A stretch of 57,287 nucleotides of DNA from Thiomonas sp. FB-6 (GTDB taxonomy: Bacteria > Pseudomonadota > Gammaproteobacteria > Burkholderiales > Burkholderiaceae_C): positions 1 through 57,287 of the forward strand of contig NZ_KB898488.1 of the NCBI RefSeq assembly GCF_000377645.1, written 5' to 3'. The notes below the pieces were generated by a model. The model searched no databases and was not told the origin of the DNA. It worked only from the letters and a program-made list of their open reading frames with translations. Below, piece by piece: positions 51,050 through 52,745 of the stretch (the first letter of the stretch is position 1; each line of letters starts with the position of its first letter). Position numbers and translations under genes: made by a program.

Positions 51050-51114
51050 GGTGGCGACGATTGTAGACACGCCGCGCTCCGGGGGAAGGGGCCCCCTCCT
51101 AGAATGTGCGCACC

Positions 51115-51813
51115 ATGACGACCTACCGCATCGCTCCCAGCATTCTGTCGGCCGATTTCGCCCGCCTGGGCGACGAGGTCCGCAGCGTCATCGACGCCGG
51201 CGCCGATTTCATCCACTTCGACGTGATGGACAACCACTACGTCCCCAACCTCACGGTGGGGCCGCTGGTGGCGCAGGCCATCAAGCCCTATTGCAAGCGC
51301 GCCGACGGCACCCCGGTGGCGCTGGACGTGCACCTGATGGTCGAGCCCGTGGACGCGCTGGCGCAGATGTTCGCCAAGGCGGGGGCCGACATCATCAGCT
51401 TCCACCCCGAGGCCACCCGCCACGTGGACCGCACGCTGCAGCTGATCCGCGACGCCGGCTGCCGCGCCGGGCTGGTGTTCAACCCGGCTTCCAGCCTGGA
51501 CGTGCTCGACCACGTGATGGACAAGGTCGACCTGGTGCTGATCATGAGCGTGAACCCCGGCTTCGGCGGGCAGAGCTTCATTCCCGAGGCGCTGCGCAAG
51601 ACCGCCATGGTGCGCCAGCGCCTGGACGCCTACCGCGCGCACAGCGGGCGCGAGGTGCTGCTGGAGGTCGACGGCGGCATCAAGGCCGACAACATCGCCG
51701 CGGTGGCCGCCGCCGGCGCCGACACCTTCGTGGCCGGCAGCGCGATCTTCGGCCACAAGGACTACCGCGCCGTCATCGACGCGATGCGCGGCGAACTGGC
51801 CAGGGTGGCATGA
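51115..51813 (+). CDS. rpe: ribulose-phosphate 3-epimerase
   Basis: 232 residues. TIM barrel with [44 protein letters not shown] and [10 protein letters not shown]. Interconverts ribulose-5-P and xylulose-5-P. The TGA stop overlaps the ATG of the first repeat mini-ORF (ATGA at 51810). Confidence 0.96.
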
Positions 51814-52044
51814 GCGCCGTGCACGGCCGCTCCGAAGCGGCGCTCCACTCCCTCGGGGAGTCGAGCGTAGCGAGGAGGGTCGTCCCATGAGCGCCGTGCA
51901 CGGCCGCTCCGAAGCGGCGCTCCACTCCCTCGGGGAGTCGAGCGTAGCGAGGAGGGTCGTCCCATGAGCGCCGTGCACGGCCGCTCCGAAGCGGCGCTCC
52001 ACTCCCTCGGGGAGTCGAGCGTAGCGAGGAGGGCAGTCCAGTGA
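51810..52044 (+). repeat. three tandem 77-bp repeats encoding a chain of 26-residue mini-ORFs
   Basis: Copies at 51810-51886, 51887-51963 and 51964-52040. The first two are identical; the third differs at 3 of its last 7 bases. Each copy begins ATGAGCGCCGTG and contains one frame ([18 protein letters not shown]...) of 26 codons whose TGA overlaps the next ATG. A perfect Shine-Dalgarno GAGGAGGG ends 7 nt before each new start. The third mini-ORF ends over the gph GTG. Each copy also holds hairpins GCCGCT/AGCGGC and ACTCCC/GGGAGT. Whether the peptides are made is unknown. Confidence 0.9.
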
Positions 52045-52745
52045 GCCCGGCGGCGCCCGCCGGGGCCGCCGCGGTCTCGGTGGCCGGCGTGCCCGTGCGC
52101 GCGGCCATCGTCGACCTCGACGGAACCATGGTCGACACCCTGGGCGACTTCCTGGTGGCCCTGCGGGGCATGCTGCATGAACTCGGCCTGGGCGAGATCA
52201 CGCCCGAGCAGGTCGCGCAGCGCGTGGGCAAGGGCTCGGAGCATCTGGTCGCGCAGGTGCTGCGCCTGCACCTGCCGGCGCAGCAGGCCGACGCGCTGCA
52301 CCCGCGGGCGCTGCGCGTGTACCAGCAGCACTACACGCAGGCCAACGGCCGGCATTCCGCACTCTTTCCCGGGGTGCTCGAGGGCCTGCGGCGCCTGCGC
52401 GACGCGGGCCTGGCACTGGCCTGCGTGACCAACAAGCCCGGGATGCACGCGCGCGCACTGCTCGAACGCAAGGGCCTGCTGGAGTTCTTTTCCGAGATCG
52501 CCGGCGGTGACGCCTACGAGCGCAAGAAGCCCGATCCGCTTCCGCTGCTGCGCACCTGCGAGCGCCTCGGGCACGCACCCGCGCGCACCCTGATGGTGGG
52601 GGACTCCCAGAACGACGCCGCCGCCGCCGCGGCCGCCGGCTGCCCCGCGGTGCTGGCCACCTACGGCTACAACCACGGCGAGCCGATTCGCGCCACGCCG
52701 GCGCTGGCCTATTTCGACCGCCTGGACCAGCTGCCCCTGGCCTGA
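52041..52745 (+). CDS. gph: phosphoglycolate phosphatase, HAD family
   Basis: 234 residues, GTG at 52041 preceded by GAGGAGGG inside the last repeat copy. Motif I VDLDGTMVDT, motif II VTNKPG, motif III KKPDP and motif IV MVGDSQND are intact. Dephosphorylates 2-phosphoglycolate. The rpe-gph order is typical of proteobacteria. Confidence 0.92.
   Translation: MSPAAPAGAAAVSVAGVPVRAAIVDLDGTMVDTLGDFLVALRGMLHELGLGEITPEQVAQRVGKGSEHLVAQVLRLHLPAQQADALHPRALRVYQQHYTQANGRHSALFPGVLEGLRRLRDAGLALACVTNKPGMHARALLERKGLLEFFSEIAGGDAYERKKPDPLPLLRTCERLGHAPARTLMVGDSQNDAAAAAAAGCPAVLATYGYNHGEPIRATPALAYFDRLDQLPLA

Follow-up and report, generated by a model that had tools for sequence, protein, structure and literature searches.

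Supply et al., writing on mycobacterial interspersed repetitive units (MIRUs) in 1997, are said to have mentioned 77-bp units and DTGA sites. In those portions of the literature that bear on the locus treated here, MIRUs are short repeats of variable copy number (PMC12548453, PMC3635867) that are apparently mobile, insert at start codons and carry an ORF coupled with -4 nt spacing, their insertion having little effect (PMC12548453). Part of the same source deals with ATGA coupling in general, in which neighbouring genes are coupled at a 4-nt stop/start overlap (PMC12548453). A second family, the Beta-proteobacterial repeat element (BRE; Hot et al. 2011), has full-length copies of 75-91 bp with a GC content of about 64-79%; they form tandem arrays of differing copy number, and hosts include Bordetella, Polaromonas, Delftia and Acidovorax. 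Mobility has been suggested and some copies overlap gene ends by a few bases, and the pertinent sections of that paper report neither a function nor an ORF relay (PMC3110155). The small mobile repeats RU-1/2/3 of enterobacteria, according to the relevant part of their description, carry open frames and can join coding sequences (PMC2759123).

Here we analyse an array of repeats at the rpe-gph junction of Thiomonas sp. FB-6. As judged by comparing sequences, it is very probably a tandem array of a dispersed repeat that lies at the NTGA overlaps of operons and carries with it a complete translational link, by which coupling would be preserved.

Results

The window, that is, the whole stretch of DNA that was analysed, comprises 57,287 nt (positions 1 to 57,287 of the forward strand of NZ_KB898488.1), and all features given below are on its + strand. 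The gene rpe, encoding ribulose-phosphate 3-epimerase (51115..51813; TIGR01163, E 9.5e-89), was assigned its ATG by eye, the listed open frame starting with GTG at 51106; the gene gph, encoding a phosphoglycolate phosphatase of the HAD family (52041..52745; TIGR01449, E 4.6e-57, above cut-off), starts with GTG. Between them lie three tandem 77-bp units (51810..51886, 51887..51963 and 51964..52040; spacing 77 and 77), which TRF scores at 450 with 100% matches. All three are matched by our covariance model R2, unit 1 with 93.9 bits at 51811-51879; unit 2 repeats unit 1 exactly, and unit 3 departs from them at 3 of its 77 positions, all within the last 7 bases.

Each mini-ORF consists of a unit and the first 4 bases of the sequence that follows, giving 81 nt, or 26 codons and a TGA (51810..51890, 51887..51967 and 51964..52044). 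Mini-ORFs 1 and 2 encode the same peptide, and that of mini-ORF 3 ends in ...RRAVQ. The TGA of rpe (51811-51813) overlaps the start of mini-ORF 1 in an ATGA at 51810, the next two junctions are ATGA at 51887 and 51964, and the last is the GTGA at 52041 with which gph starts. A 4-nt overlap of this kind demands a unit length of 2 modulo 3, for which 77 qualifies. The coordinates and the repeat analysis therefore bear out what had been described in a sequence-only reading of the window, namely a triplicated 77-bp unit with 26-codon frames overlapping as ATGA, ATGA and GTGA.

That reading also gave each copy its own Shine-Dalgarno (SD) sequence, which is correct for the starts of copies 2 and 3, and for gph, each preceded at 8 nt by AGGAGG (51873..51878, 51950..51955 and 52027..52032), but not for the start of copy 1, where the preceding 20 nt contain no match of at least 4 bases to AGGAGG; the same holds for the 20 nt before the ATG of rpe itself. 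Because the first ATG has no SD and the SD of each unit precedes the next start, entry into mini-ORF 1 would depend on ribosomes that finish rpe. Counting against a relay, the SDs in the window could allow fresh initiation instead of hand-over.

When one unit was compared with its own genome, 17 matches of 34 to 84 bp were obtained with E below 1e-10 (the three in the window included), some of them complete copies and the shortest a 34-bp fragment where a contig ends, so that the unit cannot be put down to chance; the further copies for which the sequence-only reading advised a search are thus present. All 13 arrays that were read in this genome start with NTGA, and a frame of at least 80 codons ends there in 11 of them, the remaining two being cut by a run of N or by a contig end. 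Their neighbours include thiosulfate-transporter-like, ThiF-like, SsuA-like and TauC/SsuC-like transporter genes, as well as branched-chain-amino-acid-type permeases, kdsB and prfA. Elsewhere in the genome, on contig C19 (L027:1578-2897), the 5' half of a second element copy forms the in-frame N-terminus of an MFS-type transporter gene. On contig C24 (L032:1293-1518), three related but diverged repeats with a spacing of 79 lie 3' of a gene end with no relay seen (R2 E 1.7e-6 to 7.3e-5); GGGCCGCCCCAAGC is common to them and to the relay element of Variovorax.

Among named contigs, exact matches to the core were obtained in 25 stretches, which come from Thiomonas bhubaneswarensis, a Thiomonas MAG and 'Proteobacteria bacterium' MAGs. 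Model R2, built from 33 copies, has hairpin 1 right and the second helix one column off, so that searches with it rest on sequence and hairpin 1, and its first three positions are the leading TGA, so that copies having a TGA are favoured; with these properties it finds the element, at an E-value no higher than 1e-4, in 110 of 299 family genomes and 8 of 300 order genomes (own genome counted in both), and in 1 of 369 genomes class-wide, which is the own genome alone. At E 1e-3, 22 of the 28 genomes of the genus have a match. Rfam gave nothing above its gathering score for positions 51500-52400 of the window, the single hit being a chance-level miRNA match of 21.1 bits against a required 90. Searches of plasmids and phages yielded no match with the window's unit or with the element of L066, and one matching Variovorax record with the element of L322.

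The sequence-only reading treated the relay as a feature of rpe-gph, which comparison does not support: among the 26 of 28 genus genomes in which a match to rpe was obtained, the element stands at this junction in the own genome alone. In 16 of the 26, rpe and gph overlap each other directly through ATGA or GTGA (one, L209, was assigned by its likeness to L207), and the other 9 have some other arrangement. The three nearest relatives, with 97% Rpe identity, read gtggcGTGAGC (two genomes) and gtggcATGACG (the third) at the place where the own genome reads gtggcATGAGC...(3 units)...GTGAGC. Comparison with these junctions thus locates the element exactly at the stop/start overlap, with the overlap rebuilt on both sides. 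At the 7 empty sites examined, no SD-like match of at least 4 bases precedes gph, so that the element would also supply gph with an SD, with the caveat that for a start to be without an SD, as at these empty sites, is not unusual, the start of rpe being equally without one. At the same rpe-gph junction, three relatives (L200, L201 and L203, near 2196 when oriented with rpe) have an insert of about 62 nt that is unlike the element, forms a mini-ORF of 21 codons that has an NTGA overlap on either side, and is absent from L202; being single-copy in each of the three, it was ruled out as a second repeat family.

The number of units does vary, as the sequence-only reading had thought it might: it differs at 5 of 14 sites shared between genomes, most of them draft assemblies (5 vs 1, 2/2/3, 1 vs 2, 4 vs 3 and 3 vs 2), and perhaps at a sixth, L273/L283, where one weak copy of L283 went uncounted. 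The arrays of L236, L254, L217 and L244 are long, with 5 to 6 units, and in some of them the spacing is not uniform. In the own assembly, contigs C15, C21 and C60 each have an end that falls within the element, and the copy upstream of kdsB (L004:1450-2399) comes after a run of N. On C60, prfA runs into the element at the contig end (L025:347-1534), and C1 reads ycaR, three units and prmC (L002:1173-2572). Judged by eye, prmC closely follows prfA in 19 of 27 relatives; here the end of prfA and the start of prmC both carry the element, and the ycaR-prmC join, which has probably linked two loci through the repeat, reflects either recombination between copies or misassembly. The neighbourhood of rpe and gph agrees with that of the relatives, and yet, because the element is a place where this assembly breaks and, in one apparent case, joins wrongly, a copy number of three at this junction is not secure.

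Variation in copy number, together with the hairpins and SD that every unit brings, is what one would expect of a translational rheostat, in which the array is kept because the Gph:Rpe ratio depends on the number of units, a number that slippage alters. We consider this quite improbable, since the element stands at rpe-gph in one of 26 genus genomes, its unit also precedes unrelated genes, and its number at this site is not secure in the own assembly.

The hairpins inside the unit, also proposed in the sequence-only reading, are two in number (51812..51845 and 51846..51862 in unit 1, placed by the family alignment and present again in units 2 and 3; the outermost pair of the second is C-C here), and both covary across the family. 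Counted with the corrected structure on an alignment made without structure, 89.5% of cells in the two hairpins are paired, and both sides have changed in 36 cells as compared with 9.8 after shuffling, a number reached in 0 of 500 shuffles. Both-side changes occur at 3 of 9 pairs of hairpin 1 (92.2% of cells paired) and at 4 of 7 pairs of hairpin 2 (86.1%). As a possible alternative, the 3' arm of hairpin 1 may pair with a GAGCG downstream of hairpin 2, for which 90.9% of cells are paired and both sides have changed at 1 of 5 pairs. Four units were folded individually. The minimum-energy fold of the window's unit (z -3.3) pairs the SD and the next ATG, as would be expected if the next start can be opened only through translation of the mini-ORF; the L075 unit folds in a similar manner (z -2.1), and the units of L064 (z -2.3) and L066 (z -1.4, no better than expected) both form hairpins 1 and 2 and have no more than short pairings near the SD.

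To compare coupling across the family, we fetched 120 stretches around matches from family and genus and searched them together with the loci obtained earlier; because mostly best-scoring matches were taken, the fractions that follow describe strong copies, and copies within one genome are not independent. Grouping gave 176 arrays, 158 of which have at least 300 nt on both sides and 156 of which were usable for codon-position GC. Alignment A2 holds 150 of 160 matches, to which 5 of the remaining 10 were added by hand, leaving out L283:1173, L242:1-48 and three antisense echoes; L283 was consequently counted with 1 copy when it has 2, and L131 was removed as a duplicate of L062.

We defined an exact relay as a frame of at least 80 codons that ends at the element's first TGA, followed by a chain of NTGA overlaps into a long downstream frame. 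Such a relay is present in 88 of 158 arrays as against 9 of 26136 mock positions, a comparison that supports the chain of coupled mini-ORFs put forward in the sequence-only reading as a probable arrangement. Within a range of +-25 nt, 95 arrays have a relay and 16 are fused (mock positions: 408 and 619 of 26136). In Variovorax paradoxus (NZ_CP138516.1), for example, a sense relay leads from 381 open codons through a 26-codon mini-ORF and a GTGA to 182 codons. There remain 47 of the 158 arrays with neither relay nor fusion on the sense strand, and 7 of these 47 are linked on the other strand, which counts against the relay; in total, the other strand has 5 relays and 3 in-frame fusions. Also against the relay, 29 of 78 mini-ORFs have no SD-like match of at least 4 bases before the next start.

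These exceptions could be taken to mean that the element is a plain repeat, that is, a REP-like RNA or DNA palindrome whose frames are accidents of GC-rich, stop-free sequence. Consistent with this, the hairpins covary, the orientation can be reversed, and the related repeats of L032 lie 3' of a gene end without a relay. The element is mostly stop-free in two of its three frames, so that openness alone proves little; the frame control says little either, one of its frames necessarily starting at the stop and the other coinciding with that of the downstream gene. Taking the longest open frame as the downstream gene was also equivocal, giving the relay frame in 34, the third frame in 28 and the fused frame in 8 of 70 cases. 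At this GC shadow frames are often long, and that test was therefore replaced by one in which the coding frame is called from codon-position GC with a penalty for stops. So measured, 105 of 156 arrays have an upstream coding frame that stops at the TGA of the element. Among the single-copy arrays at an NTGA of this kind, 63 in all, downstream coding follows the relay frame in 48 cases, the fused frame in 9, the third frame of the sense strand in 2 and the antisense strand in 4.

Accidental frames are difficult to reconcile with precise coupling on both sides of the element at numerous unrelated sites, with sense calls that give the relay frame in 48 cases out of 59, or with mini-ORF lengths that differ by whole codons between genera. 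The same can be said of the tandem spacings, which, counted once per array and spacing, fall 32 times in class 2 modulo 3 (overlap), 29 times in class 0 (straight read-through) and 7 times in class 1. We therefore think it very improbable that the element is no more than a palindrome with chance frames. Overlap is not universal, units of 75 or 78 bp being read in frame with no relay.

What the mini-ORFs encode is far less constant than their position. Among 78 mini-ORFs from 32 genomes, 74 have 25-28 codons; since two phases of the same hairpin are read, their peptides are unrelated. In 20 previously unused stretches from other genomes of the order we found 20 arrays: 15 of them are reversed, and in the other five the sense strand carries 3 relays and 2 fusions. 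Reversed copies (L296, L303 and L375-L389) have a different mini-ORF, typically MKQPPYSLRSFPPEGEVSSFGTAVRN, that likewise bridges gene junctions. In the 25 rows of our table of reversed copies, one of which is an artefact (L375 minus), the start lies at most 6 nt from the upstream gene's stop in 18, the mini-ORF has 26 codons in 15, and the next ATG is one base past its stop in 15. Across the family, then, the link appears often to be kept where the peptide changes completely, even in frame or strand. That the mini-ORF encodes a functional 26-residue peptide is hardly credible: although MSAxHGRSEAALxSLGESSVARRxxP is common to many copies in the genus, other genera read the element's DNA in another phase (MSAARPFRRRSLPLGGTARSAKGAT) or on the other strand, the ratio of nonsynonymous to synonymous change among 39 distinct 26-codon mini-ORFs is 0.81, and minority letters are spread over codon positions 1/2/3 as 131/159/135.

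Discussion

The genomes compared here document the anatomy of the array, its dispersal, its position at an overlap that relatives have without the element, and a link often kept without its peptide. From these we infer that the mini-ORFs are translated, with reinitiation at the overlaps, that the element is mobile and that it has effects on gph. If the array is a dispersed repeat that carries its own translational link, the element's ATG would overlap the TGA of the upstream gene, about 26 sense codons would follow, and an SD would lie just before the element's own TGA, which overlaps the next start. Having completed rpe, a ribosome would restart on mini-ORF 1 and, in passing along it, melt the hairpins of the unit, which would free the next SD and ATG; translation would be handed from unit to unit and finally to gph, which would also receive from the element an SD that is absent from related empty sites. 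Because each unit is closed in itself, units could be gained or lost without breaking gph, and the main effect of this design would be tolerance inside operons.

A more far-reaching proposal is that this repeat of Burkholderiales, not known to be related to MIRUs, amounts to a self-contained ribosome conveyor whose frame spans gene junctions on either strand and in several phases, with a fold that hides the next start until a ribosome arrives, and that unit number is a heritable setting of downstream translation in many operons; we regard this as rather unlikely. Since it is the link that is kept, and not the peptide, small ORFs like these call for independent evidence before they are regarded as functional proteins. 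The natural arrays, with 1 to 6 units, offer ready test material for how many stop/start passages a ribosome survives. Our results further suggest that mycobacteria are not alone in having repeats that occupy the single place in an operon where a complete mini-ORF is harmless.

The sequence-only reading knew of no described example of such a relay, which has to be corrected, since the relevant part of one account already describes MIRUs as working in this manner (PMC12548453); among the papers listed in our literature search, none was recognised as describing such relays outside mycobacteria. The likeness to MIRUs extends to an ORF within the repeat that a 4-nt overlap couples to the next gene (here the GTGA at 52041, and the 78 mini-ORFs in 32 genomes), to a position at the start codon of an operonic gene (here judged from the empty rpe-gph sites, from which insertion would follow), and to a tandem arrangement in variable number (here at 5, perhaps 6, of 14 shared sites, mostly drafts). 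The two differ in their hosts, mycobacteria as opposed to Burkholderiales, and they are likened by the description of MIRUs, not by sequence; the covarying hairpins, the in-frame units of 75 or 78 bp and the reversed copies are features of the present element, as far as a comparison by description alone can tell. Because its named matches are Thiomonas, Variovorax and 'Proteobacteria bacterium' MAGs, we describe the element as working like a MIRU and do not file it as one.

General ATGA coupling joins two ordinary genes, whereas here a repeat is placed between the genes. RU-1/2/3, in the part of their description that concerns this point, are fused within genes (PMC2759123), whereas the present element forms a relay between an overlapping stop and start. 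Like the BRE, the element is tandem, variable in number, mostly located between genes and a resident of Betaproteobacteria; its units of 25-28 codons correspond to 74-83 bp from start to start, and its covariance-model matches have a GC of 0.62-0.87. Matched by description (hosts, tandem variation, gene-end overlaps and, approximately, size), the family may be the BRE of Betaproteobacteria, in which case our analysis would offer a role for a repeat described without one. What is new here, to the extent that genome comparison can reveal it, is that the working principle of MIRUs appears in a repeat of other bacteria.
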